Assembly (NCBI GenBank): GCA_028692715.1
Contig: JAQUWU010000003.1
Coordinates: forward strand, 109,627-173,626
Direction of reading: 5' to 3'
Source of the DNA: Paludibacter sp.
GTDB taxonomy: Bacteria > Bacteroidota > Bacteroidia > Bacteroidales > Paludibacteraceae
DNA length: 64,000 nucleotides
Shown: one piece after another, positions 26,714-61,931 of the stretch
Numbering within the stretch: the first letter of the stretch is position 1
How the letters are laid out: each line of letters begins with the position of its first letter
The notes under the pieces: model-generated
Told to the model about the DNA's origin: nothing
What the model saw: only the letters and a program-made list of their open reading frames with translations
The model's database searches: none
Made by a program: the position numbers and the translations under genes

Positions 26714-26715
26714 AA

Positions 26716-27438
26716 ATGTTGACCATTACTTGCTTTATAATTGACGATGAGCCACTGGCTCTTTCTTTAGTAGAGAGTTATGTAAATAAAACCCCGTTTT
26801 TAAAACTAAAGGGGAAATTTTCATCAGCACTGGCCTGTTCCTCTGTTATCAACGAGTCAGCGCCCGACCTCTTATTTTTAGATATTCAAATGGCCGAACT
26901 AAGCGGAATGGATTTCGCCCGCATTGTTCCGGAAAAGACCCGTATCATTTTCACAACTGCCTTTCAACAATATGCACTCGAAGGCTATAAAGTGGATGCT
27001 TTGGATTACCTATTGAAACCTTTTAGTTATACAGAATTTCTGACTGCTGCCAATAAAGCGCTCAAATGGTTTCAAATGAGCGAAAAAATCAAAACGACAA
27101 CTGAGAATACAACAGATTGCATTTATGTGAAATCCGACTATCAGCTTGTTCAAATTCAACTTAACAAAATATTGTATATCGAAGGCTTGAAAGATTATCT
27201 AAAAATATACATGGAAGGTGAAATACAACCTATAGTTTCACATATAACTATGAAAGCAATGGAAGATATGCTCCCCGAACATCAATTTTTACGGGTACAT
27301 CGTTCATTCATTGTTAATGCCGAAAAGATTAAGATTGTAGAACGAAACCGTATTATTTTTGGGAAAACCTACATCCCTGTTTCCGATTCATACAAAGAAA
27401 CGTTCCAGAATTTCCTAACTAAAAGGACTCTGAATTAA
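26716..27438 (+). CDS. LytTR-family response regulator
   Basis: A DNA-binding response regulator. The 240-residue protein has an N-terminal receiver domain (acidic pocket IIDDEP, phospho-acceptor Asp in LLFLDIQMAELSGMDFA, the Lys in DYLLKPF) and a C-terminal LytTR domain (about 125-235; FLRVHRSFIVNAEKIKIVERNRI). LytTR proteins bind paired direct repeats upstream of target genes. It follows its kinase by 2 bp. The paralogous pair at 48801-50551 has the same layout. Confidence 0.93.
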   Translation: MLTITCFIIDDEPLALSLVESYVNKTPFLKLKGKFSSALACSSVINESAPDLLFLDIQMAELSGMDFARIVPEKTRIIFTTAFQQYALEGYKVDALDYLLKPFSYTEFLTAANKALKWFQMSEKIKTTTENTTDCIYVKSDYQLVQIQLNKILYIEGLKDYLKIYMEGEIQPIVSHITMKAMEDMLPEHQFLRVHRSFIVNAEKIKIVERNRIIFGKTYIPVSDSYKETFQNFLTKRTLN

Positions 27439-38456: not shown

Positions 38457-39668
38457 TTAGTTGCGAACTAATCTTACATAATTTTTTATACGAATTGAAT
38501 CCGAAGCATTTACCGATTCCAATAGATAATCTTCTATTTCTCCACCTTTAGGATCCGAGCGTTGAGCCCCTGCCCCATGCCAATCGTAATAAGTTGTTGC
38601 ACTGCTGTTGTCTTTACTATAAGCATATCCAAATGCAATATAGCAAGCAGTGTATTTAAAATCTCCTTGTGTTGTACTAGTCCAAAACCAACTATCATTA
38701 TTGGTACAAGTAAAATAAGTTTCATCAATTGCTGGAATCGTCGTTTTGTCGTAATCCACAATACTTTGAAGTTCCTTTGTGTTAGGTAATCTCCAATCTT
38801 TATATCCCGCAACTTCAGCATTTTTTGCATAAATAAGTGCATCTTTCCAATTGTAAGTATTGCCATCATCGCTTTGTTGCCACATCAAACTAGTCGCTTT
38901 ATCGGTTACTGTTCCGTCGCCATTATTTACAAAATCATTGACTCCATAAATATTCTCAGTACCTCTCACCGCTCTCACATAACAACCTGGGGCCTCAACT
39001 CCAGAACTACCATCCCAATACAAACCTGTTTCGTAGGCTTTTAAGTGACCATCGGCGAAATTATAACCGAAAGCTCCTTCCATAAGTATATTTTGTAATG
39101 GGCCTTTTACATATTTAGTACTCGACCAATATTGTCCCGCATACGACATTCTTGAATCGTATTGAAAATCAAGATAATCACTAAACAAATAAGGTTGTGA
39201 ACTTGAAGTTGATGAACTCGACAAACTACCATTAGAGTAAATAATTGAATACAATTCTTTGATAGTCGGCATTCTCCAGTCTGTGTATCCGCCTATTGTT
39301 AAGCCATCTGTATAAGTGGATGCAGCATAAAACTGATATTTCGAGTAGGTTGGCGTTTGTTGCCACATCAAACCTGTTTTTAAATCGGTAACCGTTCCAT
39401 CACCATTGTCCTGATACGAGGGTGTTATTCCAAGGTATTGAGCATCTTGCCCATAAAAATCGTCTGATTCACTGGGTGTTGTTATTACATTTCCATCGTT
39501 GTCATAAAAAATATCTTGACCTGTATCTGTTAGCGTGAAACTTACTGTTGTATCTTTAGAAGTGTCATCTGTCACATCTTCAGTGTCGCAGGAGTAAAGG
39601 AAGAAACTTAATCCTATAAATAGATAGATGAGTTTTGTTGCAAATGAATGCTGATTTGTAGTTGTCAT
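38457..39668 (-). CDS. DUF1566 (Lcl C-terminal domain) lipoprotein, two repeats
   Basis: A 403-residue lipoprotein; the signal peptide ends in the lipobox LYSC. Two DUF1566/Lcl_C domains follow, each with the pattern 'DNGDGTVTDLKTGLMWQQ ... YTDWRMPTIKELYSI ... YWSST ... VRAVRG' (about 85-245) and 'NNGDGTVTDKATSLMWQQ ... YKDWRLPNTKELQSI ... WTST ... VRLVR' (about 250-403). These domains resemble the C-type lectin / FGE-like fold and are found on exposed lipoproteins; binding function is unknown. The 754-residue protein at 56363 carries the same domain pair. Confidence 0.87.
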   Translation of the reverse strand: MTTTNQHSFATKLIYLFIGLSFFLYSCDTEDVTDDTSKDTTVSFTLTDTGQDIFYDNDGNVITTPSESDDFYGQDAQYLGITPSYQDNGDGTVTDLKTGLMWQQTPTYSKYQFYAASTYTDGLTIGGYTDWRMPTIKELYSIIYSNGSLSSSSTSSSQPYLFSDYLDFQYDSRMSYAGQYWSSTKYVKGPLQNILMEGAFGYNFADGHLKAYETGLYWDGSSGVEAPGCYVRAVRGTENIYGVNDFVNNGDGTVTDKATSLMWQQSDDGNTYNWKDALIYAKNAEVAGYKDWRLPNTKELQSIVDYDKTTIPAIDETYFTCTNNDSWFWTSTTQGDFKYTACYIAFGYAYSKDNSSATTYYDWHGAGAQRSDPKGGEIEDYLLESVNASDSIRIKNYVRLVRN

Positions 39669-47366: not shown

Positions 47367-48782
47367 TTATTTTTTTAATTGATAGGAAAAGTAACTGGAT
47401 TTATTCACTGATTTAGCTTGAATATCTGTTTTAACAAATTCAAAAGTTGCTATGTCTGCTGTTATTTTCACTCGCATATATCCCGGACTAACAAAGATTT
47501 TACCCGATAAATATTTATATTCCTCTGCCTGGTTGTTATTTCCTTTCTCTTTAGCGCCTGGTTGAGAAATGCATTGATAAACAATTCCATCCAAATCCTG
47601 CTTCGCAAAAATATGATCGTGACCATGAAAAACCACATCGACTTTATATTTTCTCAATAAATCATGTATGGGCATTTCCCAATCGGGTCGGTGTTCTTTG
47701 AAACCATCCGTTCCGTCCGTATTTTTTCCGCCCCATTCAAAAAATGGAGCAGCTTCAGCACCACCTCTTCCACGTCCTTTTATATCCAATCCGCCTACCA
47801 AATTGTGAATAAAGACAAATTTAAAAGCGGCTTTACATTTTTCTAATGTGCTTTTCAACCAATCGTATTGCTCTTTGCCCAAAGTACGTGCCCACGGATC
47901 ATTACTGCCTTCGCGCAGGGTGTACAGAAATGGATCGAGTACAATAAACTGCGCGTTTCCCCATTCAAAAGCATAATAATTCCGTGGCAAACCGATAAAT
48001 GGTATCTCTGTTTTACTGCCCGTATAAAATTCGTTTGGTTCAGGATTTGGGAAATACTTTTGTCGTGTTTGATTGGCCCAAACAGTCATATTATCTTCCT
48101 TGCCATTCAATTTTTGCCCCGATTCACCATCATGATTGCCTTGTACGAAAAACAAAGGTGATGAATTACACAACAGTCCCAAATAATAACGCTGTACAAT
48201 ATATTGATTCAGTGCGTCTTTGTAATTGTCACGATACTTATCGGTCATAAAAGTATCGCCCAAATCAAAATGCGCATCGGTCGAATCGGAGGCTGCATTA
48301 AGTAAAGTTTGTTTGTAAATTTCGGTATCAACATTTTCGTCGAGATGCGAATCGGCAATGATGCTAAAGCTAAAATCACTGTTTTCTGCCCGCGCAGTAT
48401 GAAATGGCAAGACATCCGACTTGCTGATTTGAATTTTTGGATTTTCTGAAACAATACGATAATGATATTGAGTATCTGCTTTTAAACCCTTCAAAATTAT
48501 TTCTTTTGGTTGATTGGCTGCCAAACTATATTTTTCCGATGACGAAATTATTTTAGAATCGGTCCAGTATTCTACTTTGATATTGGCCGATTTATAAAAT
48601 AAAACCGATAAGGTAATGGAATGATTGGTTGGTCGCCCTAAAATAACATCAAAAGTATGAGCAGGGACAACCGTTTGAAATGCCGGTGTAGGATGACTGT
48701 CTGTTTTTGGTCTGTTTTTCTGACCATAAGTCTGTGTAATGCAAATAAATAGTATTAGACTGAATACTGATATTTTTTTCAT
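47367..48782 (-). CDS. Exported calcineurin-like metallophosphoesterase
   Basis: A 471-residue exported protein (signal peptide ending near TYGQ). Residues about 45-130 look like the fibronectin-like N-domain of purple acid phosphatases (TQYHYRIVSENP). The phosphoesterase domain follows with ADSHLDENVD (metal ligands D-x-H), DLGDTFM (GD), VQGNHDGES (GNHD), FIHNLVGG and FHGHDHIF (GHxH). It ends without a T9SS sorting domain. It is the last gene of the operon that begins at 58627, 18 bp after the LytTR gene. It is clearly paralogous to the phosphoesterase half of the protein at 59341-61809 (shared DLGD, YFPNPEPNEFYTG / YYPGPQPDGFYTG, TLGKEQYDWLKSTLE / TLGKTQYDWFRSTLE). Confidence 0.92.
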   Translation of the reverse strand: MKKISVFSLILFICITQTYGQKNRPKTDSHPTPAFQTVVPAHTFDVILGRPTNHSITLSVLFYKSANIKVEYWTDSKIISSSEKYSLAANQPKEIILKGLKADTQYHYRIVSENPKIQISKSDVLPFHTARAENSDFSFSIIADSHLDENVDTEIYKQTLLNAASDSTDAHFDLGDTFMTDKYRDNYKDALNQYIVQRYYLGLLCNSSPLFFVQGNHDGESGQKLNGKEDNMTVWANQTRQKYFPNPEPNEFYTGSKTEIPFIGLPRNYYAFEWGNAQFIVLDPFLYTLREGSNDPWARTLGKEQYDWLKSTLEKCKAAFKFVFIHNLVGGLDIKGRGRGGAEAAPFFEWGGKNTDGTDGFKEHRPDWEMPIHDLLRKYKVDVVFHGHDHIFAKQDLDGIVYQCISQPGAKEKGNNNQAEEYKYLSGKIFVSPGYMRVKITADIATFEFVKTDIQAKSVNKSSYFSYQLKK

Positions 48783-48800
48783 TTTTGTATTTTTTATTAA

Positions 48801-49520
48801 TTAAAGCATAAAATTCTTATCTAAAAACTCTTGAAAATTTGTTTTGTACTGAGCACTTACCGGAATAATAGTTCCATCGTCGTACACAATTTCATTGCGT
48901 TCTATTACGTTAATCTTTTGCAAGTTTACTATATACGATTTATGTACCCGCATAAACATGTTGGAAGGAAGTTGCACTTCCAACGATTTCAAACTCAACA
49001 ACGACATAATAGGTTTATTGGTTGTCAGGTGGATTTTTACATACTCACTCATTCCCTGAATGTATTTAATATCCTGAAAATTAATGCGAATAATTTTATA
49101 TTCCGATTTGATAAACAGAAATTCCTTGTTGGTTTCAAACTGAGCTGTTTTTTCTTTCCGTACTACCAGCCACTCTTTAGCTTTGTGGACTGCTTTTTGA
49201 AAATCAGGCAAGTCGATGGGTTTCAGTAGAAAATCGATGGCATCCACTTTAAATCCTTGTAAAGCATACTCACCAAAGGCAGTAGTGAATATTAAAACCG
49301 GTTTATTTTTCAAACTAGAAACGAGTTCTAATCCCGATAAGTCAGGCATTTGAATATCTATGAATAAAATATCCGTTTCATTTTCGTTCAGATAGTTCAA
49401 CGCCTGAACAGGATGCGTGAATTTGGCTGTCAATTCAAGCGCAATATCCTGCTGAATATAGTTTTCTAAAATACTCAAAGCCAAAGGCTCATCGTCTACA
49501 ATTACACATTTAATTTTCAT
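48801..49520 (-). CDS. LytTR-family response regulator
   Basis: A 239-residue regulator with a receiver domain (IVDDEP; ILFIDIQMPDLSGLEL with the phospho-acceptor Asp; DFLLKPI) and a C-terminal LytTR DNA-binding domain (FLFIKSEYKIIRINFQDIKYIQGMSEYVKIH; FMRVHKSYIVNLQKINVIERNEI). Its ATG overlaps the stop of the kinase gene by 4 bp. Its position inside the T9SS/sulfotransferase operon suggests that it controls this operon. Confidence 0.93.
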   Translation of the reverse strand: MKIKCVIVDDEPLALSILENYIQQDIALELTAKFTHPVQALNYLNENETDILFIDIQMPDLSGLELVSSLKNKPVLIFTTAFGEYALQGFKVDAIDFLLKPIDLPDFQKAVHKAKEWLVVRKEKTAQFETNKEFLFIKSEYKIIRINFQDIKYIQGMSEYVKIHLTTNKPIMSLLSLKSLEVQLPSNMFMRVHKSYIVNLQKINVIERNEIVYDDGTIIPVSAQYKTNFQEFLDKNFML

Positions 49521-50551
49521 ACTGTGGGTATTTTAAGATTTACTTCAAATTCATTTTCAGGTGAATTGATATTTAATTCATAGTCATTACCAAACAATAA
49601 ATTCAGTCGGTTTTTGCTATTTTCCAACCCTATGCCTCCTTTTTCATTTTGATAGTGTTTAATATTTTTACAATTAAATATCAATTCATTATCAATCAGT
49701 TGAAATGAAATATCTATCTGACTTTCGTTTTCGTAACTTGTGCCGTGCTTGAAGGCGTTTTCGATATACGAAATAAACAACAAAGGTGGAATAAGCACAT
49801 CGTCGTAAACTTCAGGAAGAGTTAACTGTATGTCTTTTGCATCGGCATAGCGCAATTTCATTAAATCGATATAACTCTTTACAAATTCAAATTCTTTACT
49901 GAGTTTCACTTTCCCGTTTTTGTTTTCGTAAAGCATATAACGCATCAATTTCGATAATTTCATCACCGCTTCTTTGGCTTTGGGCGAGTCCAAATCTATC
50001 AATGCGTAAATATTGTTGAGCGTATTCATTAAAAAGTGTGGACTCACCTGATTGCGAAGTATATCCAACTGCATTTCAGTATTTCGCTTTTCTAATAAAT
50101 TTCGAGCATGTTCATTTTCATTCCATTTGCGGGTAAAAAGCAAACCTGTATCAACGCCAACAATTAACAATGAATACATCAGTAGATGGGCATAGGGAGG
50201 AATGGGGTTTGGTTTGTTTGTTGGGTTTTGCACTGTATTCGATTTCGATTTATAAGTATTTGACTCGAATCCTTTATAACCCAATGAAAAAGAAAGTATT
50301 AATGATAAAATAATTACAAAATAGGATATGTATTTTTTCCGAAGCAGTAATTTGGGTACTAATAAGAAATGATTGATCAGAAATAAAGGTAAAAGTAGTG
50401 ATTGATCGATCCAGATTTTTCTTACATGCAACCAACTTATTTGGTCATCAACTCGCGTAAATATCACTGGTATGGCAAATAAAACAAGAAATACAAATCC
50501 CATGATTAGGAGTTCGAAATTTCTGCCTTTATGGTGTGTTCTTTTAGTCAT
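49517..50551 (-). CDS. LytS/YehU-type sensor histidine kinase
   Basis: A 344-residue membrane kinase with four N-terminal helices (about 12-150), the H-box LRNQVSPHFLMNTLNNIYALID, the N-box ISYIENAFKHG and the G-box GGIGLENSKNRLNLLFG. It is translationally coupled to the LytTR regulator (4-bp overlap) and starts 28 bp after the LVIVD-redoxin gene. The signal is unknown; the membrane part has no large extracytoplasmic domain, so it probably senses something in or near the membrane. Confidence 0.92.
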   Translation of the reverse strand: MTKRTHHKGRNFELLIMGFVFLVLFAIPVIFTRVDDQISWLHVRKIWIDQSLLLPLFLINHFLLVPKLLLRKKYISYFVIILSLILSFSLGYKGFESNTYKSKSNTVQNPTNKPNPIPPYAHLLMYSLLIVGVDTGLLFTRKWNENEHARNLLEKRNTEMQLDILRNQVSPHFLMNTLNNIYALIDLDSPKAKEAVMKLSKLMRYMLYENKNGKVKLSKEFEFVKSYIDLMKLRYADAKDIQLTLPEVYDDVLIPPLLFISYIENAFKHGTSYENESQIDISFQLIDNELIFNCKNIKHYQNEKGGIGLENSKNRLNLLFGNDYELNINSPENEFEVNLKIPTV

Positions 50552-50579
50552 TGTTCTTATTGTTACTTGTATAACAAGA

Positions 50580-52667
50580 TTATTTTTTCAAAAGCATTTT
50601 GTTCGTGTATATTTTCCCATTTATTTCTAACTGACAGAAATAAACTCCATTTTCGTAAGTTGTTGCATTCCAGCTATAAGAATGCTGACCAATATTTAAA
50701 TATTCATCCAGCAGTTTATCTATTGGATGTCCTAACACATCCAATATTTTTAAGCTGACTTTACTGTTTTCGGATAAATTAAACTCAATCTTGGTGGATG
50801 TGTTGAATGGATTAGGGTAGTTTGTCAATGAAAATTTATTGCCATCAGCATATTTTAAATCTTTTATTTCAGTGGAGTTCTGCAACAAATTATTTATTGT
50901 TTCAATCGTTTTAAATGGATCATATCCAAACGAAGAAGCCTGAACAATTCCATTTTGATCGATAATATACGATTTTCCCCAGGGTAATCCACCATTTATT
51001 TGTTCGTAAAACTGACTAAAAGTTGCTGCTGTTTCTTCATAGGCAATTCCAGTATTCAAATAATACCAATCAAAATATTGTTGCAACCGGCTTAAACCTT
51101 CGCCCTCTTTGCCATCGAAAATAAAAGTAACTACATTGGGATTATTTTTAAACTCCTCAAATACTTTAGTTTGCATATCGGAAAGTACAGGAGGACAAGC
51201 CGGACAAGATGATCCAAATATCGGAAACCAAACCACTTTACCCAAATAATCCGAAAGTCTTAGTGTGCTTTGTGAATAAACTCCCGACGTATTATTTCGA
51301 GTCAGGTAATTCAGATTGAAATCTACCGCTTTTTCACCCGGGTCTAAATATTGAGTTTTGCCATACAATTGTATTGGCAGAGGATTTTCATCAATGTCGT
51401 TTGAATTTACCAGCAACACGTCACTTGCTTCGGCATCGGTTGGTGTATAAGTCACATCTACCCACACCGTGTCGTTGTGATTCAAGGTTTTTGGTCCTAC
51501 GAAATTGGTTTCAAAGGAATTATCTTTATTTGTAATACTTTGAATATTCAGACTTCCGTACCCATTGTTGCTCAAAGCAATTCGTTGCGTTTCGCCATTG
51601 ACATCAAAACAGATGCGGTCGGTGGTGCTGTTAATGTCGGGTGTAGAACTTTTACCGGCATCTTTAATTTTATAGAAATCGAGATAATTCCAGTTGGCGC
51701 ACATCAAAATAGAATCGTTCATACTTCCTGCTCCAGCCAATAAACGCATGACTCCTCCATTTTCGCGACGAGTCATATTTTCATGTGCTGCAAGGGTTGG
51801 TATTCCATTGCTATTGATATTAAAAAGCAAAACTTTGGTGTAGCAGGTCACAAACAATAAATTACCTGCCCAACCACATTCTTCGGCAAATGCATTGGTT
51901 GGAATCACAGTTTTATTATTCAAATCAGATTTATTGTATACTAATAAACCTTCGCTTCCTGCCACCATATACACGTTTTTGCTATCGGTAGTTATGGCTT
52001 GTGAAGTCCCTATTCTGCTTTCTGTTGCTTCGCTAAATACAATTTTTGGATTTTGTTTATCCGATACATTTACTACTTTTAAACCACCACGACCATCGGC
52101 CACATAAGCCAAATCGCCCGAAACTGAAATGGCATAAGCATCAGTAAATCCATCCAAAATTTTTCCTGTAAGTGTAGGGTTTTCTCTATCCGAAATATCA
52201 TATATCCGCATCCCATTTCGGTGTGCAGTAACATAAAGATAATTTCCAGCTATGCACATTTTTTCGAAAAATACATTCGTTTCCGACATTTCTTTCACCA
52301 ACGAAATCACGTCGTTTTCAATTTTAAAAATATCGAAACCCGGAATTACCTTACTGTTCGTGCTGTTTATATTAGCATAAATATACTTGTCTTTTACATA
52401 AATATTCCGAATATTATACTCGACAAATTGTTGTATGCTTTCTTGTGTACCTGTCAAGGGCAAAGTGTTTGGGTTGATTAATGCCAATCCTAAATTTCCC
52501 GCAACAACAATTCGATTAGCACTAAACTGTTCGGCACACATCAAATGATCAGCCGTAGGATTTTTATGGCAATTATAACGGTACATATATTCCAGCGTTT
52601 TCTCCTGAGCATAGTTATTCATTGAAACAAGAAAAATTGCAGTGAAAAGTATGAATCGTTTTTTCAT
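50580..52667 (-). CDS. LVIVD-repeat + redoxin + T9SS sorting-domain surface protein
   Basis: A 695-residue secreted protein with three parts after the signal peptide (ending NNYAQ). Residues about 40-330 are LVIVD-type propeller repeats (GNYLYVTAHRNGMRIYDISDRENPTLTG; GDLAYVADGRGGLKVVNVSDKQNPKIV). Residues about 440-600 are a thioredoxin/redoxin domain with active site FGSSCPACPPVL (CPAC) and the cis-Pro region GLPWGKSYIIDQNG. Residues about 620-695 are a T9SS type A sorting domain (SLTNYPNPFNTSTKIEFNL ... GVYFCQLEINGKIYTNKMLLKK). It lies 66 bp after the sulfotransferase gene. A surface-exposed redox protein is inferred. Confidence 0.88.
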   Translation of the reverse strand: MKKRFILFTAIFLVSMNNYAQEKTLEYMYRYNCHKNPTADHLMCAEQFSANRIVVAGNLGLALINPNTLPLTGTQESIQQFVEYNIRNIYVKDKYIYANINSTNSKVIPGFDIFKIENDVISLVKEMSETNVFFEKMCIAGNYLYVTAHRNGMRIYDISDRENPTLTGKILDGFTDAYAISVSGDLAYVADGRGGLKVVNVSDKQNPKIVFSEATESRIGTSQAITTDSKNVYMVAGSEGLLVYNKSDLNNKTVIPTNAFAEECGWAGNLLFVTCYTKVLLFNINSNGIPTLAAHENMTRRENGGVMRLLAGAGSMNDSILMCANWNYLDFYKIKDAGKSSTPDINSTTDRICFDVNGETQRIALSNNGYGSLNIQSITNKDNSFETNFVGPKTLNHNDTVWVDVTYTPTDAEASDVLLVNSNDIDENPLPIQLYGKTQYLDPGEKAVDFNLNYLTRNNTSGVYSQSTLRLSDYLGKVVWFPIFGSSCPACPPVLSDMQTKVFEEFKNNPNVVTFIFDGKEGEGLSRLQQYFDWYYLNTGIAYEETAATFSQFYEQINGGLPWGKSYIIDQNGIVQASSFGYDPFKTIETINNLLQNSTEIKDLKYADGNKFSLTNYPNPFNTSTKIEFNLSENSKVSLKILDVLGHPIDKLLDEYLNIGQHSYSWNATTYENGVYFCQLEINGKIYTNKMLLKK

Positions 52668-52733
52668 TTTGTAGTATAATGAAGTATTAAAACTGAATTA
52701 GAAGGATTGAAATTGTTAGACTAAATATAAAAT

Positions 52734-54455
52734 CTAACGTTTAATAAGTGATGTAACCTGTGTATTACTTTTATTTTTTATTTTCAAAAAATACATACCT
52801 TTTGAGATGTTTGATAAATCTTGTTCTACAATCTTGTTTCCACTCCAAATTGTTTGACCAATAGAATTAATGAGTTCAAAACTTTCATCTCCAACAGCAT
52901 TTTGTAAGTTGATTTTAGTAGAAAATGGATTTGGGTAAACAAGTAAATTTGAAGTGTTATTTACATCATTTATACCTGAAGGATATTTTTCAATAAAATC
53001 TCCTGGAGTCATTGTTTTTCCGGTAAAAGCGGGATAATCCAACGGATATTTATAAACCCTGAAAACAGAATTCATCGTTTCATCTGCTCTGGCTGCATCA
53101 ACATCTGGTGCCACGCCTTGCGTTATCACACCGTTTAGTTGAACGGGACAAACATATTTCCAAACCACCTGACCATCAGCTGTTACTTCGCGGAATTCGC
53201 CAATAGTTCCTGAGCAAATTATGGTATTTCCATTGGGTAAACGTTCAGCTCCTGAGATATTTTCGGAATACATGGGGGAAATTGCATCTGCCTGATAAAA
53301 CCATGAATACGTTGCGGGTAAAAACTTCGAACCTACAGTAATAGCATAATTTCCATTGGCATCGACGGCTGGTGTAAATTCATCGACCGTTGAATAAATA
53401 GTTGAGCCTCCACGTCCTAAACCATTATCAAAACAAGTCATATTTCCTGCACCCGGATAACCTGGTTTTACCCATTCCACATCGTGTTGCTGAAAATAAC
53501 GTTGGTCGCTGGCAGTTCCGGCACCATAGCAAATCGGATTTCCCCAACGATACAATAGATCACCGCCTTTACCACGATTTCCACCGGCATGACTTTTTGC
53601 TTCGGCAGTAGTGGTGCTGTGGTCAATAATCCACACTTCGCTGTTGCCGCGTACACTTAAGGCAATTTGATCGAACTGTTCGTTATAATCTATCGAGTTC
53701 ATGTGGTTCCAGAAAGCAGGTAGTTTTTTGCCGTCGCCATCACAATCTACTAACTCCGGATGTTGCTTTGGTGTTCCATAATTTAGTTTTGTTGCATCAA
53801 AATCCTGAATTAAATGATCCCAGGTGTGCCATTCCCAAACTACAGTGCCACCTTTGGGATAAGTTGGTTTAATTTCAGCCACATAATCAGGTAATACTAT
53901 TGTAGGTAGTTGTTGTGTTTTAGGATCTAATTGAAAATTTGCGGTATTAAATCCTGCTGCAGCACATTCAGCCAATGTTTTTTTCTCAATTACCAACATG
54001 ATTATATTCCCATTAGGTAAAATATGAATGTCGTGATGTTGCATGTATGTAGCGGTTGAAAAATCGAGTTCCCAAACCAAATTGTCATCCCAGTCGTATT
54101 CTTCAATCCGACCACCTTCGCCACCGCCACTACTCAACTGACCTTTAGTCATGCATGAACGTAGGATGTGTCCGTTTGGTAATAAATAAACCGATTGTCC
54201 CGGAGGATAAATACTATTTGACCATTGGTGCACAACCCGACCTTCATTATTTATCAGGTAGGTAGTGTGATATTGCTTGGGTGCAAACAAAGTATAACCC
54301 TTATAAACTTTAGCTGTATCGTTCAGGAATAAACCAACTGTGCGGGTTTGAGAAAAAGAGGAAAATATAAAAAAAAGAAAAAGAAAAGCCCCCAACCCCC
54401 TAAAGGGGGCTTTGTAGTTACTTTTGTTTGATATATTTTTTATTTGAGTTCTCAT
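52734..54455 (-). CDS. Aryl-sulfate sulfotransferase-family protein with T9SS sorting domain
   Basis: A 573-residue secreted protein of the arylsulfotransferase (ASST) family, which transfers sulfate between phenolic compounds without PAPS. The six-bladed propeller part (about 45-490) has the family His-containing motifs MQHHDIHILPNGNIIML, FWNHMNSIDYNEQFDQIALSVRG, and QQHDVEWVKPG, plus SGAERLPNGNTIICSG. The end (about 500-573) is a T9SS sorting domain (LLVYPNPFSTKINL ... GMYFLKIKNKSNTQVTSLIKR). The signal region MRTQIKNISNKSNYKAPFRGLGAFLFLFF is partly encoded by the dispersed GC-rich palindrome. The substrate is unknown. Confidence 0.88.
   Translation of the reverse strand: MRTQIKNISNKSNYKAPFRGLGAFLFLFFIFSSFSQTRTVGLFLNDTAKVYKGYTLFAPKQYHTTYLINNEGRVVHQWSNSIYPPGQSVYLLPNGHILRSCMTKGQLSSGGGEGGRIEEYDWDDNLVWELDFSTATYMQHHDIHILPNGNIIMLVIEKKTLAECAAAGFNTANFQLDPKTQQLPTIVLPDYVAEIKPTYPKGGTVVWEWHTWDHLIQDFDATKLNYGTPKQHPELVDCDGDGKKLPAFWNHMNSIDYNEQFDQIALSVRGNSEVWIIDHSTTTAEAKSHAGGNRGKGGDLLYRWGNPICYGAGTASDQRYFQQHDVEWVKPGYPGAGNMTCFDNGLGRGGSTIYSTVDEFTPAVDANGNYAITVGSKFLPATYSWFYQADAISPMYSENISGAERLPNGNTIICSGTIGEFREVTADGQVVWKYVCPVQLNGVITQGVAPDVDAARADETMNSVFRVYKYPLDYPAFTGKTMTPGDFIEKYPSGINDVNNTSNLLVYPNPFSTKINLQNAVGDESFELINSIGQTIWSGNKIVEQDLSNISKGMYFLKIKNKSNTQVTSLIKR
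54389..54411. repeat. GC-rich palindrome inside the signal-peptide codons of the sulfotransferase
   Basis: A copy of the CCCCCTAAAGGGGG repeat that is read in frame as Ala-Pro-Phe-Arg-Gly-Leu-Gly-Ala. It sits between the basic start and the hydrophobic core of the signal peptide, 16 codons into the protein. Confidence 0.8.
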
Positions 54456-54498
54456 ATTTATTATTTTAAATGGTTTATTTAGATGTTACTAATTTCTG

Positions 54499-54542
54499 TT
54501 CCCCGCCATTTATCCCGATATTATCGGGAGGGGTTAGGGGTT
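54499..54542. terminator. Palindrome CCCGATATTATCGGG between the two sulfotransferase genes
   Basis: A perfect 7-bp stem (54514-54520 with 54522-54528) with GC-rich flanks related to the dispersed palindrome family. It lies just after the stop codon of the frameshifted paralog on the minus strand. It could act as a transcript-stabilising hairpin or weak terminator; there is no T tract. Confidence 0.5.
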
Positions 54543-54543
54543 T

Positions 54544-56350
54544 CTATCTTGTAAAAATCATTTTGTTTCCAACTTTCAAATTGTTGTTCAATAACACATA
54601 GAAATAAAGCCCACTGTTTAATCGGTTTCCAGAATCATCAGTTCCATCCCAAATCAAGGTGTTTTTTCCTGAATAAAACATTCTGTCAGCCAAATTTCGA
54701 ACGGTCCTCCCATTTAAATCATAAATTACAACCCTGATTTTTTGGTCTGCCGGTAATTGAAATTCTATATTTGTATTTACAATGAATGGATTTGGATAAT
54801 TCTGACTCATTACTCCAATGTTTATTTGCTCCGCAATTTTCTTGATAGATGTAATATCGGCCGGAACCAAATAAGAAGGATCATAACCGGTCATTGTTGC
54901 ACCAGGAGTCAGGTCATGTCCAGCTAAAGCCGGATGATCAGACGTATACCGATAAGCACGGAAAGCAGCATTATCGGTTGGATATGTATCGGTTTTAATT
55001 TTCTTGATACCGCTGCGTGTAAAAGGATTAATGTATTCCCAAACAATAGAAGTGTCTGTCGGACAAATCTCAAAAAAAATGACCGGAATTCATGGCACAA
55101 ACAAAAGTGTTTCCGTTAGGTAAGCGTTGCGCACTTGACCCAATAGTACTAAAAAACGTTGTATTGTTTTTACTGGAGTACATCCAGCTTACTTGTTTGG
55201 AAATATTTTTCTTTTCTTTCATCAAATCCGAATTGGCAGGAAGCAAAATATTATATCCAGCATCGGGAGGATTGACATAAGCACTTGTTTGAGTTCCGGA
55301 TGCATTTAAAAACGGGTTTATCTCAAAAATATAAGATTGAGGAGTCATTTCATACAAATTCTGTCCATTATTGAAAATCAAAAAATTTCCTTCACCAGGC
55401 AATCCTGGTTTAATCCATTGAATATCGTGAGCACCTCCAATTTGTTTGTTTCCGGTGGATGTTTTTTCGGGATTGGTAGAAAATGATGGTGCACTTCCCT
55501 GACCATATTTATACGGATCGCCAAAACGGTACAAGAAATTTCCTGCTGCAGAAGCAGCCAATGTTACAGAGGCTGCAGAATCATTTTTGACAAAAGTATT
55601 GCCATGATCTATCACATAAAATTCACCATGCACGGAATTTATCACCACTTGATCCAATTGTTGATTATAATCCATCGAATTACAATGTAACCAATCACTT
55701 TTCAGTGGATTTCCAGTCATATTGATATTGATTTTGCCGGGCATATTTTTAACAACGCCATAAGTTGCTGTTTTGCTAGCGTCATAATCCTGCACTGTAT
55801 GGTCAAAAAACGCCCATTCCCAAATAACTTTTCCGGCACGGTTCACTTCCACCACCACATCCAATTGAACTCCCGTATAAGTTCCACTTTGTGCCAATGC
55901 CGGATTTGCGCCAATTGCCAAACATTGCTCCGAAGTATAATCTTTGTTGGCAATATACATAAAAGTAGAATCGCCAAGAATAGGATTGAATATTTTTACA
56001 AAGTCGTGATGCGGATGATAATTCGTACGCTTTTCGGTATACGTCCACACGGTATTTCCATTCCAGTCGAGCTCTTTCCAAACATTTGAATTGCTTGGGT
56101 CACCACCCACTGCATCAAGTAAAGTGCCGGCTTCGGTAAACCGAGGATTGGTTCCTATTTTCCATGTATGAATTACATGTCCTTCCATATCAACAAGATA
56201 AGTTGTGCCTCCAGACCCGAACAAAGTATAACCATTATAAGCTTTTGAACTGTCCCAATAACGTGTCTCGGTAGGAATAAAAAAAGTTTCCTGAGCAAAA
56301 AGTGCAATTACTGAAAAGCCAATAATTAAAGTAATTATAGATCGTTTCAT
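54544..56350 (-). pseudogene. Second aryl-sulfate sulfotransferase-family gene with a homopolymer frameshift
   Basis: The first part (55070-56350) gives a signal peptide (ending LFAQ) and the ASST-like propeller with YHPHHDFVKIF, LHCNSMDYNQQLDQVV, GAHDIQWIKPG and SAQRLPNGNTFVCAMNSGHFF, then stops inside a run of eight A (T on the coding strand, 55072-55079). With one base fewer, the frame continues without interruption through FEICPTDTSIVWEYINPFT ... GHDLTPGATMTGYDPSYL into a T9SS sorting domain (SQNYPNPFIVNTNIEFQL ... GLYFYVLLNNNLKVGNKMIFTR) ending at 54544. The joined protein (about 600 residues) aligns in order with its neighbour at 52734. It may be a phase-variable or sequencing-error frameshift rather than a dead gene. 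Confidence 0.85.
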
Positions 56351-56362
56351 AATATTTAAAAA

Positions 56363-58627
56363 TTATCTGTTTAGAATAAGTTTGTGTCCGGATATAGTAT
56401 TGTCAACTTGTAATATTAAATTGTAAAACCCAACAGGAAAACCACTACAATTAAAATCAAATTGATGATTTCCAGCAGATAGTTTTCCTTTGGTAATCTG
56501 TGTCATCAACTGACCTGTTGAATTAAAAAGTTTCACACTGACATTGGCATCAGAAGCAGTTGAGAATTTAACGGTAACATTCGTAGAACAAGGATTTGGG
56601 AATGTGCTTAATTGAAAAATGTTTGAGTTTACATTTTCAATTCCTGAAACTGTTTTGTCAAATTTTCGAACCACCCTAAACCCAATATGATACCATGGAT
56701 GATTAGGATCTTGTGGTCCACGAAAATAGGATGGATTTCGATTCGACACACGTGAATGCCCGTCGTCTATTCCGTTTACAATATCGCCATTGTACCAACA
56801 GCCACCTCGCATTCCTTTGTATTGTTTACCATCGGGCATGGGCGAACCTGAACTTGGTCCTTGCGGATTGCTTGCCGGACTTATGCTGTAATAGGTTGAC
56901 GAATACCAGTCGTTAATAAATTGCCATACGTTTCCTGCCATATCTACCAATCCAAAACCGTTTGTACTATTTGAAGTTTGGTAGCTTGCTGCACTTGACG
57001 GCCAGTTATAATCCGATTTTTGTTTCAATGTTCCGTCATAAAATCCAACCGGTGTACTAAAGGGATAAAGATTTGTATCGGTACTTTCATAAGGATCGAC
57101 TGTTGAAGGCCAGTTGGCATGAGTTTTATCGCCTTCGGTATTATCGCCCCAGGGATAATTGTAATATGGATTGTTTTGTCCGCCACGTGCTGCATATTCC
57201 CATTCGGCTTCGGTTGGCAAGCGGTAACCGTTTTTTGAAAAGTCGCAAATGCCGGTGCTCAGATTGTAGCAATTATCAAATCCGTTTTGTCCACTTAACC
57301 AATTACAAAAAGCAATAGTTCCATACCATCGCATTCCAACTACGGGATGATTAGCACGAAAATCAGCCATCGAAAATTCCTTTCCATCAAAACTAATACT
57401 GTAATACGAAGCGTATTGATAGGTATAACAATAAATTGAATCGGAACCAACTCCATACACTATTTTATTTTTTACGGTTATCAAACCATTGGCATAAGCC
57501 GAATTCAAATAAGTAAGATATTGCTGATTGGTGATATGTGTTTTAGACATGTACATCGAGTCAATTTTCACGTAGTGCAAAGGTAATTCGTCGCTCGGAT
57601 GTTTTGGATCAACAAATCCAATGTGATCACCCATAGAAAATGTCCCGGAAGGAATCAATACATCCGAAATATTCAAACTTTCGTTGTCCATTCCACCCCG
57701 AACCAAAATAACGTATTCATTTTGAGATTTATCGTTATAAGTAACCACTCCATAATCAGTGTTTAAATCCCAGGCAATTGTTGTTGTTTTATACTGACTG
57801 GTTGACGACCAATAAAAAGCTGATGTGACTATATTGGGAAAAAAAGTTTTATTGAAAGATGGTTTAATGCGTGAAACATCATTTAGTGATTGTAATTCCT
57901 TGATATTAGGTAATCGCCAGTCCGATTTGCCACCAATCGTTACCGTTTTAGCATATGCCAATGCTACATCCCAAGTCATTGGAGTTGTCGATGATAATTT
58001 TTGCCAGGTTAATCCGGTAAAATTATCTTTTATAGTTCCATCACCCTTATCTATAAAATGTTCAACAGTGAAAATTGTCGTGATGGTATTCCGAACTGCC
58101 CGCACATTAAAATTTTTTGTACCTCCGGCACTGATTGTCTCCGTTTTTAGATGATTACCGATACCTCCTCCAGCATTTGTTGCCCAAATATGAGTTGCAT
58201 TTTCAGCTTGTTTTTCACTGCTCCACCAATATTCTGCCAGTGTTTTTGTAAAATATGTTGTATTCAGAGCCGGATTATTTGTGTCAAAATGATGAATGCT
58301 GAATAACTCCTGTGCTGTTGGTAATCGCCAATCTGTAAACCCAGCCAAAGTCGAAGTCTCGACGTAGTTCACGGCATTCTCATAAGTCATTTCGCCACCA
58401 TCAGTTTTTTGCCACATCAATTGGGTGTTATTATCAGTAACAGTTCCATTGCCATTATCGGTAAACGACATGGGATTAATTTTTGAATCTGTATCTTCGC
58501 CCAAAGTGCTTGTATAACTAACAACCTGACCTGTGTCAGGGAGTTTAAAAGGCACTGTTTTTTGAGCTGAAATAGCTGTAGAAAATATTACACAAAATAG
58601 GGTTATTTTCTTAAATGGTTTTATCAT
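56363..58627 (-). CDS. DUF1566 x2 + FGE-sulfatase-like domain + T9SS sorting domain protein
   Basis: A 754-residue secreted protein (signal peptide ending ISAQ). Residues about 50-310 are two DUF1566/Lcl_C domains (TDNGNGTVTDNNTQLMWQK ... WRLPTAQELFSI; GDGTIKDNFTGLTWQ ... DWRLPNIKELQSL). Residues about 320-665 form a formylglycine-generating-enzyme-like (SUMF1) domain: IPSGTFSMGDHIGF, NGYRLPTEAEWEYAARGG, GLVDMAGNVWQFINDWY, GMRGGCWYNGD, GFRVVRK. The true FGE copper-binding Cys-x4-Cys after RGG is not seen (one Cys only), so sulfatase activation is unlikely and a ligand-binding role is favoured. A T9SS domain ends the protein (STFPNPCSTNVTVKF). It is the first gene of the operon, 12 bp before the frameshifted sulfotransferase gene; TAAATTTG on the minus strand (58659-58652) may be its -7 element. 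Confidence 0.88.
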   Translation of the reverse strand: MIKPFKKITLFCVIFSTAISAQKTVPFKLPDTGQVVSYTSTLGEDTDSKINPMSFTDNGNGTVTDNNTQLMWQKTDGGEMTYENAVNYVETSTLAGFTDWRLPTAQELFSIHHFDTNNPALNTTYFTKTLAEYWWSSEKQAENATHIWATNAGGGIGNHLKTETISAGGTKNFNVRAVRNTITTIFTVEHFIDKGDGTIKDNFTGLTWQKLSSTTPMTWDVALAYAKTVTIGGKSDWRLPNIKELQSLNDVSRIKPSFNKTFFPNIVTSAFYWSSTSQYKTTTIAWDLNTDYGVVTYNDKSQNEYVILVRGGMDNESLNISDVLIPSGTFSMGDHIGFVDPKHPSDELPLHYVKIDSMYMSKTHITNQQYLTYLNSAYANGLITVKNKIVYGVGSDSIYCYTYQYASYYSISFDGKEFSMADFRANHPVVGMRWYGTIAFCNWLSGQNGFDNCYNLSTGICDFSKNGYRLPTEAEWEYAARGGQNNPYYNYPWGDNTEGDKTHANWPSTVDPYESTDTNLYPFSTPVGFYDGTLKQKSDYNWPSSAASYQTSNSTNGFGLVDMAGNVWQFINDWYSSTYYSISPASNPQGPSSGSPMPDGKQYKGMRGGCWYNGDIVNGIDDGHSRVSNRNPSYFRGPQDPNHPWYHIGFRVVRKFDKTVSGIENVNSNIFQLSTFPNPCSTNVTVKFSTASDANVSVKLFNSTGQLMTQITKGKLSAGNHQFDFNCSGFPVGFYNLILQVDNTISGHKLILNR

Positions 58628-58748
58628 TGGATATGAATTATTTCATTTTTACAAATTTATTTTATTCATCCATTTTTTCATAATGCTAATCTATGAAATG
58701 AAAGATTCTATCAGCGAAACAGAAAAATAAATAAAAAATTTCGAAATC

Positions 58749-58809: not shown

Positions 58810-59013
58810 ATGATACACACTGTAAAGATAGACGATAATACACGAAACGGAAAGAAAATCATTAATGATTTACGTCGTTATCGAAAAGGTGTTGAATTTG
58901 AAAATCCTGCTGTAACCGGCATTGTACCTGAAGGTTATATGACCGCAGAAGAGTTTGAAAAAGAAACTACAAAGGATATAATTGAAATATGTCAAAAACA
59001 TGGTATTTTATAA
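58810..59013 (+). CDS. Probable type II antitoxin
   Basis: A 67-residue protein: MIHTVKIDDNTRNGKKIIND LRRY (basic helix), VEFENPAVTGIVPEGYMTAEEFEKE, IIEICQKHGIL. The N-terminal ThrVal/Ile strand followed by a basic helix resembles antitoxins of the RelB/DUF2683-like kind, with an acidic C-terminal part that would wrap the toxin. It overlaps the following toxin-like gene by 14 bp, the usual antitoxin-first order. It is on the plus strand, against the surrounding minus-strand operon. Confidence 0.7.
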   Translation: MIHTVKIDDNTRNGKKIINDLRRYRKGVEFENPAVTGIVPEGYMTAEEFEKETTKDIIEICQKHGIL

Positions 59014-59317
59014 TAATTCTGCAAGATTAGATTTAAAAAATATTTTTGACGGATTATTAACTTGGTCAAAATATAAATTAGAATATAATCATGTTGTAAA
59101 ATATCATAATGACATACTACAAATTTGTAATTGTCTTGATTCCAAGTCTTTTCACTTCAATGCCCAATTCCCTTCTCACAAACGCTTTGGTAAAAAAGTA
59201 CATACCTATAAACGAAATAAACTAACACACTGGTACATTATTTACAATCTCGACTCTCACGGTAACGTTTTTATTCAACGTATTTTTTCAAACTACAAAA
59301 CCACAGAAACTGAGTGA
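59000..59317 (+). CDS. Probable RelE/ParE-like toxin
   Basis: A 105-residue basic protein: VFYNNSARLDLKNIFDGLLTWSKYKLEYNHVVKYHNDILQICNCLDS, then FPSHKRFGKKVHTYKRNKLTHWYIIYNLDSHGNVFIQRIFSNYKTTE. The order helix pair, then strands with Lys/Arg/Tyr (KRNKLTHWYIIY), matches RelE/ParE-fold toxins. The start is the ATG overlapping the antitoxin end; a longer form from 58982 is possible. The target (mRNA at the ribosome or gyrase) cannot be told. Confidence 0.72.
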   Translation: MVFYNNSARLDLKNIFDGLLTWSKYKLEYNHVVKYHNDILQICNCLDSKSFHFNAQFPSHKRFGKKVHTYKRNKLTHWYIIYNLDSHGNVFIQRIFSNYKTTETE

Positions 59318-59340: not shown

Positions 59341-61809
59341 TTAAATTATAATTTTCATCGAATTAACTCCACTTTTCATATTAATTGAAAGTATATAAAC
59401 TCCTGAAACCAGATTCTCTGGCAATTGTAAAACTGAGGTTTTAGTAGTTAAACTTATTTTTCCAAAACTGAAAATTTCTTCTCCGGTTAATGAATATATT
59501 TTAGGGTATACAACTGATTCGCTGGATGATTTAAGAAAAATAGATTGTCCCGATTGATAGACTTCCAGTATCTTCGAATTACCTTCCGGAGAATTTATTG
59601 CTGACATTACTTTGGGTTTTACCGAAAACGACCGTCGGATATTTCCATTTATTTGCCCTAGCGAAACATTATCCACGTGATAACCACCAATATAATCCAC
59701 TTTAGCACTATCATTTGTTACCGTAACATTGATATGGCCGGAACAAGGTAAGATTGTTCCGGTAACATAGCCGTAACCGGCTGCAGTGGTAGTGTTGGTG
59801 TACTGAGGTAACGATGGCTGTGGTACTTCCATATACACAATTCCATCTTTGGGTTGCTCAACATATAAGTGATCGTGACCATGAAAGAAAATCTGTACAC
59901 CATTCTCCACCATAATTTGATGAATCGGTTTTCCCCAACCCGGACGTTGTGTATCAAAACCATAAGTACTATCAGCGTTTTGCCCACCCATTTCAGCTAA
60001 ATTTACCCGTTCCGATCCTCCTCGCCCTTCCTTATCTCCGCCAACCAATTGATGAGAAAATACAAATTTGTATTTCGCTTTACTGTTTTCCAAGGTACTG
60101 CGGAACCAGTCATATTGTGTTTTTCCGAGTGTAAAACCCCAGGCATCCGAAGGTTTTGGAGTGGTGTATGCATACGGATCAATCACAACAAAAAGTGCAT
60201 CACCCCAATTCCAAGCATAATAATTCTGAATTTGACCCTGAATAAGATCATTGGTTTCATTCCCTGTATAAAATCCATCGGGTTGTGGGCCCGGATAATA
60301 TTTTTTTCGCAATGCTGTGGTTATATTATATTCATCGGTGGGTTGATTGGAGTTCAGCCAACCTAATTCACCTTCATGATTTCCGACCACCAGATATAAT
60401 GGCATTGAATTGCATACATTATCCCAAAAGTTTCGATACAACAAAGTGCGTCGCTCAATATTATTATAATTGACAAGGGGTAGTTTTTCCGACATGAAAT
60501 TATCACCCAAATCAATCAAAAAATCGGGATTCAACTTCAGTTCATTCTGCAGAGTATTCCTGAAAGTATAATAATTGGAGTTTTCGTCCAAATGTGGATC
60601 GGCTTCTACTGCAAATGAGAAAGTTTGTCCTTGATTACGCTGAGTCATGAAACTCCCTGAAGTTGCATTTTTAAAGTTAGTTTCACCAGACAAATGATAA
60701 TAAAGCTGATAATAATACTTCGTGTTTCCCGATAATCCCGTCAGTGTAATATTAATCGGCTGATTTGCAGCAAAATTTGTAATGGGAGTCTGCAATGCTA
60801 AATTTGATGCATTTGTTCCGTATGAAATATATGCTGACATATCTTTTTCTGAAAGTGCATTGAAAATAATGGAATTATCACTTGGAACACTTAAAATACC
60901 GGTAGCAATGAAATCGCCAAAGTAAGGTATTTCCACTTTATAAACCGAAACTCCGGCTGTAATAAAAAGCAGATTATTATATTTACCGCCAAAACAAAGA
61001 TTACGGACTCTTTCTCCAGCCGGAAGTGTTATTGAGCCTACGAGTGTTGCCGTTTTGTCGTAAATTTTTACACCGCCATCACCAAAAGCCACAAAAAGAT
61101 TACCAAAAACATCTGCTGTTATTCCATCAATTTCACCAGTTCCCGCAACTTTCAAAAATACTTTTTTATCTTTAGCTAAATCAACCGCACTTTCGTTTTT
61201 CAGTGCGTAAGTGTAAATCGTATTTGTGCTACTTTCGTTCACATAAAGTGTTCTCCAATCTTGCACAAAAGTGAGTCCGTTGGGTTTAATTAATGTGCTA
61301 TCTAAAAGAACAGGAGTAGTTGAATTATATGGAATGCAATACAATCCCTGAAAAGTTAGTTCACGGTTGGGTGCGCCAAAATCCGGATCTGTAAAATAAA
61401 TAGAACCGAGATAACTCAAGGCTACATCATTCGGAGCATTAAGTTTTTGTCCGTTCCATGTTGACATTATCGAGGTGAAATTACCAAGTGTATCCATTTT
61501 AGCCACATCACGGGTTCCTTGTCGGCAAACAACGAATTCATTCAATTTGGTGGCAATGATTCCATTTGCATTGCCCGAAGGATTTGCCAATGTTTGCAAT
61601 CCTGTTGCATCGCTCCATTTGTAAATGATATTTCCTGTTACATCACTGAAAACAAGATAGCCAGCGGGATGCCAAACAGGACCTTCGGGAAATTGCAAAC
61701 CCGTGACAATTTGAACTGGTTGTAAATTGTCGAAAATGTCGGCAGAAAGTGTAACAGGATTAAAAAACAAAAAAAGAGCAATAGTTTTTAGAAAATTAAT
61801 CGTTTTCAT
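59341..61809 (-). CDS. SMP-30/gluconolactonase-like + metallophosphoesterase + T9SS sorting-domain protein
   Basis: An 822-residue secreted protein (signal peptide ending near TLSAD). Residues about 30-290 are an SMP-30/gluconolactonase-like propeller (GLQFPEGPVWHPAGYLVFSDVTGNIIYKW; LNAPNDVALSYLGSIYFTDPDFG; KPNGLTFVQDWRTLYVNES). A short fibronectin-like linker leads to a calcineurin-like phosphoesterase (about 395-715: VEADPHLDENS, LIDLGDNFM, VVGNHEGELG, FSHQLVGG, FFHGHDHLYV). The last 80 residues are a T9SS domain (SLTGEEIFSFGKI ... GVYILSINMKSGVNSMKIII). It is paralogous to the gene at 47367. The catalytic GNHD is GNHE here. The ATG at 61833 is passed over because it precedes the signal peptide by eight unlikely codons. 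TACATTTG at 61849-61842 (minus) may be its -7 element. Confidence 0.88.
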   Translation of the reverse strand: MKTINFLKTIALFLFFNPVTLSADIFDNLQPVQIVTGLQFPEGPVWHPAGYLVFSDVTGNIIYKWSDATGLQTLANPSGNANGIIATKLNEFVVCRQGTRDVAKMDTLGNFTSIMSTWNGQKLNAPNDVALSYLGSIYFTDPDFGAPNRELTFQGLYCIPYNSTTPVLLDSTLIKPNGLTFVQDWRTLYVNESSTNTIYTYALKNESAVDLAKDKKVFLKVAGTGEIDGITADVFGNLFVAFGDGGVKIYDKTATLVGSITLPAGERVRNLCFGGKYNNLLFITAGVSVYKVEIPYFGDFIATGILSVPSDNSIIFNALSEKDMSAYISYGTNASNLALQTPITNFAANQPINITLTGLSGNTKYYYQLYYHLSGETNFKNATSGSFMTQRNQGQTFSFAVEADPHLDENSNYYTFRNTLQNELKLNPDFLIDLGDNFMSEKLPLVNYNNIERRTLLYRNFWDNVCNSMPLYLVVGNHEGELGWLNSNQPTDEYNITTALRKKYYPGPQPDGFYTGNETNDLIQGQIQNYYAWNWGDALFVVIDPYAYTTPKPSDAWGFTLGKTQYDWFRSTLENSKAKYKFVFSHQLVGGDKEGRGGSERVNLAEMGGQNADSTYGFDTQRPGWGKPIHQIMVENGVQIFFHGHDHLYVEQPKDGIVYMEVPQPSLPQYTNTTTAAGYGYVTGTILPCSGHINVTVTNDSAKVDYIGGYHVDNVSLGQINGNIRRSFSVKPKVMSAINSPEGNSKILEVYQSGQSIFLKSSSESVVYPKIYSLTGEEIFSFGKISLTTKTSVLQLPENLVSGVYILSINMKSGVNSMKIII

Positions 61810-61931
61810 ATTACAGACTATTATCCTTATCAAAAAGTTTTCAAATGTAATAAGAATAATGAAATATTATTTTAGAAATCATCAAACAAGATGATTTTGT
61901 CTGTCAAATGAAGAAAGGATTCATTACAGAC

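Follow-up and report, generated by a model that had tools for sequence, protein, structure and literature searches.

We found in Paludibacter sp. a minus-strand gene cluster that joins two arylsulfate sulfotransferase (ASST) paralogues, ASST1 and ASST2, with metallophosphoesterases (MPEs), a protein made of DUF1566 and formylglycine-generating enzyme (FGE)-like domains (DUF1566-FGE) and a LytS-LytTR regulatory pair. The cluster lies in a 64,000-nucleotide stretch of DNA, hereafter the window, which forms the right end of a 173.6-kb contig (JAQUWU010000003.1, assembly GCA_028692715.1) of a 4.85-Mb genome whose contamination is estimated at 5.3%. Sequence comparison indicates that the gene set is probably a real working unit, kept together in distant relatives while the regulator was exchanged. 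We give about an even chance to the fuller reading, in which the set is a surface assembly of Bacteroidota, displayed by the type IX secretion system (T9SS), that transfers sulfuryl groups and cleaves phosphoesters under one of two interchangeable regulators. The set and its linkage can be read directly from the genomes, and each biochemical step of that reading is a prediction from them.

The evidence for the unit comes from its recurrence. At E <= 1e-60, an ASST2 profile matched 4 genomes among 48 from the genus, 14 among 393 from the order and 5 among 395 from the phylum, with the source genome counted each time. Two genomes, G239 (E 4.6e-77) and G382 (1.2e-72), were left out, as their genes were nearer to ASST1 or ASST3 than to ASST2 and had no other component within 20 kb. 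The final set comprised 19 ASST2 loci from 10 families, one of them (f72) outside the class. DUF1566-FGE occurred in the same cluster at 19 of these loci, counting L079, where the contig holds the FGE part only, and L077, where one DUF1566 was found; ASST1 occurred at 18 (not in G342), a middle MPE (MPEmid) at 15 and an MPE2-like gene at 14. Several loci lacking a component end at a contig end, while G883 does not. Co-occurrence in related genomes, which the first-pass annotation had proposed as a check on its operon, was therefore borne out for DUF1566-FGE and ASST1. In three genomes of the same genus (G015, G019 and G023) the order was an SMP-30/gluconolactonase-like (SGL) domain fused to an MPE (SGL-MPE), DUF1566x2-FGE, ASST2, ASST1, MPE, histidine kinase, LytTR regulator and MPE, and genes around the kinase overlap by 1 to 4 bp; SGL-MPE falls beyond the contig end in G023, as does the last MPE in G015. 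ASST2 and DUF1566-FGE are not adjacent everywhere, since further members of the set separate them at L071, L074, L078 and L091. That gene order varies while the set stays would point to function rather than to recent descent of one stretch.

In the window, the open reading frame (ORF) list confirmed the seven minus-strand genes that had been annotated between 47367 and 58627, with gaps of 12, 88, 66, 28, -4 and 18 bp, the second of which becomes 614 bp instead of 88 if measured from the first piece of ASST2. A Pfam scan of nine proteins of the locus, with genes further out not covered, agreed with the annotated domains, recognising two Lcl_C/DUF1566 domains and an FGE-sulfatase domain in DUF1566-FGE (56363–58627), Arylsulfotrans in both ASST2 (54544–56350, in two pieces) and ASST1 (52734–54455), LVIVD and AhpC-TSA in an LVIVD-redoxin protein (50580–52667), His_kinase in a LytS-type sensor histidine kinase (49517–50551), Response_reg-LytTR in the response regulator (48801–49520) and Metallophos in the last gene of the unit (47367–48782). 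The seven genes are thus real, but ASST2 is frame-shifted and the unit extends past 58627 to an eighth gene, the minus-strand SGL-MPE (59341–61833; Pfam SGL 132.8 bits, Metallophos 51 bits). The latter has orthologues at L039 and L040 and opens the cluster in both G015 and G019, and from these sequences we conclude that it belongs to the unit. In the window, 713 bp part SGL-MPE from the other genes and hold two small overlapping plus-strand ORFs (58810–59013, 67 aa; 59000–59317, 105 aa), which have an aligned DNA counterpart in G019, are absent in G015 and gave no Pfam match. The pair may represent a toxin-antitoxin-like arrangement.

By sequence, ASST1 and ASST2 are two diverged paralogues of the arylsulfate sulfotransferase fold that is independent of 3'-phosphoadenosine-5'-phosphosulfate (PAPS). 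Structural alignment placed the ASST propeller in the AssT type, with Z scores to true sulfotransferases about 3 to 10 above those of unrelated rows. H251 and N253, at the positions of AssT H356 and N358, were invariant in 37 of 37 ASST sequences. The position of AssT R374 separates the paralogues consistently, as it is Arg in all 18 ASST1 sequences and His (17) or Gln (2) in the 19 of ASST2; at the level of sequence, ASST1 appears to keep most AssT active-site residues. Under a rival explanation, the ASST-fold proteins would be propellers that bind ligands without catalysis, and the locus would encode an adhesive or structural surface complex whose only enzymes are the MPEs. We consider this unlikely in view of the aligned histidines and asparagine shared by all 37 sequences, the arginine kept in every ASST1 and the margin in Z. 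Compared with AssT of Escherichia coli CFT073, Cpz4 of Streptomyces and PF05935 proteins, the cluster differs in that its sulfotransferases are predicted T9SS cargo beside phosphoesterases, that two diverged paralogues occur together at 18 of 19 loci, that ASST2 has His or Gln at the Arg position, and that identity is low. ASSTs move sulfate to an acceptor and do not free it, and for most PAPS-independent sulfotransferases the acceptor used in nature has yet to be identified (PMC13426309).

DUF1566-FGE, which ends in a T9SS tail, matched the FGE-sulfatase domain with 139.5 bits and its two Lcl_C domains with 187.9 bits. At the positions of the two FGE catalytic cysteines, anchored on a conserved RGG since the catalytic region was poorly aligned in PDB alignments, we found Asn at the first and N, T, S, G or L at the second in 19 of 19 sequences; the spacing and motif of the cysteine pair are those that we assume for FGE. 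The protein thus shares the FGE-sulfatase domain with SUMF1/FGE, but the cysteine pair is replaced. A role as sulfatase activator was rejected because the formylglycine-forming cysteines were absent in all 19, and a sulfatase query, taken from locus L009 described below, was not among the matches listed for ASST2 loci. Given that the FGE-like domain lacks its catalytic cysteines, the protein probably acts as a lectin-like scaffold. Binding to sulphated glycosaminoglycans has been described for the C-terminal domain of Lcl, in which DUF1566 lies (PMC11162425). Here, the Lcl/DUF1566 domain (PF07603) has an FGE-like domain and a T9SS tail fused to it, and glycan binding would follow by analogy. 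The association with sulfotransferases takes other forms as well: in G822, a single frame of 1028 aa joins an FGE-like domain to an ASST1, with separate copies of the two alongside, and at a second locus of G023, an ASST1-like gene neighbours an FGE-like gene that lacks DUF1566.

Clusters usually hold two or three MPEs resembling PhoD and purple acid phosphatases (PAPs). All eight residues of the metal-ligand motifs DxH, GD, GNH, H and GHxH were present in 32 of 32 sequences, and the closest fold was PhoD (2yeq, E 2.5e-20). Fold and motif residues are thus the same as in PhoD and PAPs, and the cluster MPEs differ from these in that one is fused to SGL, several end in T9SS-like tails (by eye) and they are co-located with sulfotransferases.

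Surface display by T9SS is inferred from the sorting tails of the cluster proteins together with PorU, the sortase, which is present in the genome (1190 bits). The four sorting domains annotated on structural proteins were indeed found, as Por_Secre_tail scored above cut-off on the products of four of the seven genes; one of the four, however, sits on the detached tail piece of ASST2, and sorting-domain scans detected no T9SS tail on the terminal MPE (47367–48782). The tail of SGL-MPE was borderline (TIGR04183, 23.4 bits against a cut-off of 23). Across relatives, the sulfotransferases and DUF1566-FGE carry T9SS tails in most copies scanned. Together, sorting domains and active-site residues support, at the sequence level, the earlier suggestion of sulfate and phosphoester chemistry outside the cell.

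The surface redoxin, which the first-pass annotation had counted as part of the unit, is not conserved. At the place of LVIVD-redoxin, which consists of LVIVD repeats, a redoxin domain with CPAC and a T9SS tail, the same-genus genomes G015, G019 and G023 hold an MPE of 555–559 aa, and this middle MPE is gone from the source genome, where only the two other cluster MPEs match it (38%). On sequence grounds, LVIVD-redoxin is a lineage-specific swap for the middle MPE. As a core part it was rejected, as it was found in 1 of 100 relatives (E <= 1e-20) and 1 of 395 phylum genomes (E <= 1e-30), both times the source genome itself. At the 18 other ASST2 loci, no LVIVD or redoxin domain match was listed within the stretches covered (1 of 19 overall), and no LVIVD-redoxin relatives were among 19 pattern matches in viral contigs. 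A search of genome contigs with two peptide patterns only gave one further locus, in Bacteroidales bacterium UBA5342 (L009:9950–16213), where LVIVD-redoxin stands with a redoxin-EF-hand protein and a sulfatase-DUF1566x2 fusion with a T9SS tail, near other large secreted-looking proteins.

In the source genome itself, a second ASST cluster spans the ends of contigs C119 and C14 in the order ASST, DUF1566x2, LVIVD-redoxin, histidine kinase and LytTR; that these two ends adjoin was deduced from a nearly identical DUF1566 stretch. In full (L007:2731–11234 and L006:3–6171), this second cluster also holds, ahead of the ASST gene, a further DUF1566x2 gene, a ferric-reductase-like membrane protein, an FAD flavoprotein with a signal resembling that of twin-arginine translocation and a metallo-beta-lactamase-fold protein with an EF-hand. 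In uropathogenic E. coli, AssT occurs in a unit with DsbL and DsbI, and the CPAC of the redoxin, together with the proximity of LVIVD-redoxin to an ASST in the second cluster too, would suit a comparable arrangement, with the surface redoxin as a dedicated thiol oxidoreductase folding the sulfotransferases. We regard this explanation as highly improbable, given that no LVIVD or redoxin match was listed at the other 18 loci within the stretches covered and that the UBA5342 genome has LVIVD-redoxin yet gave no PF05935 match.

ASST2 of the source genome reads as an N-terminal piece of 426 aa (ORF 55070–56350), whose frame is lost at a run of eight T near its 3' end at 55070, and a C-terminal piece in another frame (54544–55065; listed ORF 54544–54894), which holds the end of the propeller and the T9SS tail. 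Accordingly, a profile of intact relatives matched two pieces in the source genome and the whole length in the other matches of the genus and order searches. Both pieces look constrained, with low ratios of nonsynonymous to synonymous substitution (dN/dS; 0.03–0.07) against three relatives, though dS was mostly near saturation and thus uninformative on the age of the break. The break may reflect phase variation, a genuine mutation or a fault in the assembly. With its middle MPE replaced by LVIVD-redoxin and its ASST2 reading as broken, the set may be partly impaired in the source genome.

The kinase (PF06580) and the receiver-LytTR regulator adjoin and overlap by 4 bp, the same pair as in LytS-LytTR systems, while Pfam recognised no sensor domain in the cluster kinase. 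A dedicated LytS-LytTR pair, as first annotated, is therefore present within the unit, but across loci it is one of two alternatives. Whereas four same-genus loci have LytS-LytTR, nine loci (L047, L069, L070, L073, L074, L075, L076, L078 and L090) have instead, in or beside the cluster, an extracytoplasmic function (ECF) sigma factor and a Spy/Metal_resist-like protein, with a protein of about 100 aa containing one transmembrane-like stretch (by eye) between them. Pfam was run on one sigma factor, which was clear, and on two Spy-like proteins, where Metal_resist exceeded the cut-off in L090 but not in L070. The ECF sigma factor, small one-transmembrane-like protein and Spy/Metal_resist-like protein stand in a row as in CnrYXH-type regulation; in contrast to CnrYXH, the Spy-like protein of eight loci has no invariant His and one invariant Cys.

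Other loci depart from this scheme. In G883 (L077), a LytS-LytTR pair lies 3.2 kb upstream, and a different regulator-like gene sits in the interval. G735 (L071:11036–11908) encodes a 290-aa protein in which the membrane region and H-box of a LytS-type kinase run directly into the end of a LytTR domain, with neither ATPase nor receiver; it looks like a deletion fusion, and it may be what a deletion left behind, a one-component regulator or an artefact of assembly. No regulator was in view at 4 of the 19 loci, three of which are near contig ends (L072, L079 and L080) and one of which is not (L091). In the ASST2 tree, where most inner forks were weak, L077 fell in a four-row clade with the ECF-type L074 (support 94/91, just under the starred level). 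The LytTR form would thus appear derived, given this grouping and the occurrence of the ECF form in the family outside the class.

Comparisons within the source genome give weak support for a regulator specific to ASST clusters. The response regulator of the window was nearest to that of the second ASST cluster (56%, the next 48%), whereas the kinase, compared with six of seven His_kinase places (C18 left out), matched best a kinase on C62, where no ASST gene was seen (234 bits, against 228 for that of the second cluster). The regulator of the second cluster was likewise slightly nearer to the C62 regulator (285 bits) than to that of the window (277).

Upstream of DUF1566-FGE, a candidate imperfect direct repeat with 21-bp spacing (58689–58719, minus strand) was conserved in G019, as found with a search pattern made from the site itself, and its geometry presumably fits LytTR sites. 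The LytTR-type repeats that had been expected upstream of 58627 thus come down to one repeat-like site and are not established, as a repeat scan of ten upstream regions, made with no shuffle comparison, gave no shared motif and placed the candidate of the window below the listing cut-off. A dyad scan upstream of nine ECF genes reached a best count of 4, with 3 to 4 in shuffles.

Elsewhere in the window, we noted a histidine kinase-LytTR pair, a phosphoesterase (PF04185) that also weakly matched a lactonase propeller and a DUF1566x2 gene (25661–27438, 30522–33140 and 38457–39668). At another ASST locus (L046:3685–11951), an ASST stands beside a CotH kinase-T9SS protein, a T9SS protein resembling a carbohydrate-binding module and a histidine kinase-LytTR pair; by eye, a further neighbour resembles what we take to be a VTC polyphosphate polymerase.

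How the parts might work together can be outlined from these predictions. T9SS would place the set on the cell surface, where the DUF1566-FGE-like protein would bind either ASST1 or a polymer carrying sulfate or phosphate groups. ASST1, the Arg type, would accept the sulfuryl group of an aryl sulfate on its histidine and hand it over to an acceptor, and ASST2, the His/Gln type, would perform a related transfer with another donor or acceptor. The MPEs would cleave phosphoesters on the same substrate, and the regulator would couple the enzyme set to a signal at the envelope.

The same enzymes could instead release sulfate and phosphate from aromatic or sugar esters in solution, so that the cell takes up the liberated groups or the remaining cores, with regulators that answer to nutrient state. 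Secreted phosphatases are classic scavengers, PhoD was the closest fold for the MPE, and UBA5342 has its sulfatase-DUF1566 fusion near LVIVD-redoxin. Nonetheless, ASSTs pass sulfate on rather than free it (PMC13426309), the alternative regulator is an ECF/Spy-like module and not of the PhoB type, and neither a SusC/SusD pair, as in polysaccharide utilisation loci, nor another transporter appeared in the Pfam results of the nine proteins, genes further out not being scanned. We therefore judge scavenging improbable, and modification or detoxification at the surface fits better than feeding, given the absence of a transporter among the scanned proteins and that ASSTs transfer rather than release sulfate.

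Several observations weigh against a surface sulfuryl-transferring and phosphoester-cleaving assembly. Identity to AssT and Cpz4 in the structural alignment was low (18–21%), and the ASST structure used was a prediction with a mean pLDDT of 72.5. While H141 and H324 were also invariant in all 37 sequences, the piece that pairs H141 with AssT H252 scored -0.6 bits, which is without significance, and pairing H324 with the AssT nucleophile H436 needs a one-residue shift in an ungapped alignment. AssT T501 was not kept, as another residue was aligned, with a Ser adjacent (read by eye). An ASST search of relatives gave 60 match rows in 33 genomes, and of the 20 stretches covered, 4 hold the cluster, 4 hold one kind of partner (FGE at L042, DUF1566 at L053, a histidine kinase-LytTR pair at L046 and a distant histidine kinase at L048), 8 gave an ASST match only and 4 no match at 1e-5, so that 12 of 20 were without any partner of the query set. 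G883 and G739 have the three core genes with no MPE in the stretch covered, G739 at a contig end and G883 not, and MPEs may therefore not be obligatory. The FGE-ASST1 fusion of G822 had no T9SS tail on scan. Finally, the promoter and terminator scan was uninformative as to where promoters lie, as it gave 57 promoter-like sites where 66.6 were expected and 12 terminator-like sites where 10.8 were expected.

A more specific scheme can be put forward as speculation, and we hold it to be rather unlikely. Here, the sulfotransferases would form a two-enzyme sulfuryl relay, in which ASST1 loads sulfate from environmental aryl sulfates, ASST2 passes it to a surface or matrix glycan on the DUF1566-FGE-like scaffold, the phosphoesterases take phosphate off those same sites, and either an ECF/Spy-like (envelope-stress) module or LytS-LytTR exerts control. 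If such a relay existed, the cell would re-dress its surface charge without PAPS or ATP.

Each gene family of the cluster is known already. What is new is probably the assembly and the regulator exchange, for which we found no description in open-licence PubMed Central papers, and which together would constitute a probably extracellular, PAPS-independent sulfotransferase system. The presence of an ECF module or of LytS-LytTR beside the same enzymes offers a clear case of regulator replacement. Given that the conserved cluster nearly always pairs two ASSTs, mostly with phosphoesterases, and sets a probable glycan-binding scaffold and a regulator beside them, the question of the acceptor becomes testable, since suitable assays are suggested by the partner genes and the regulator.

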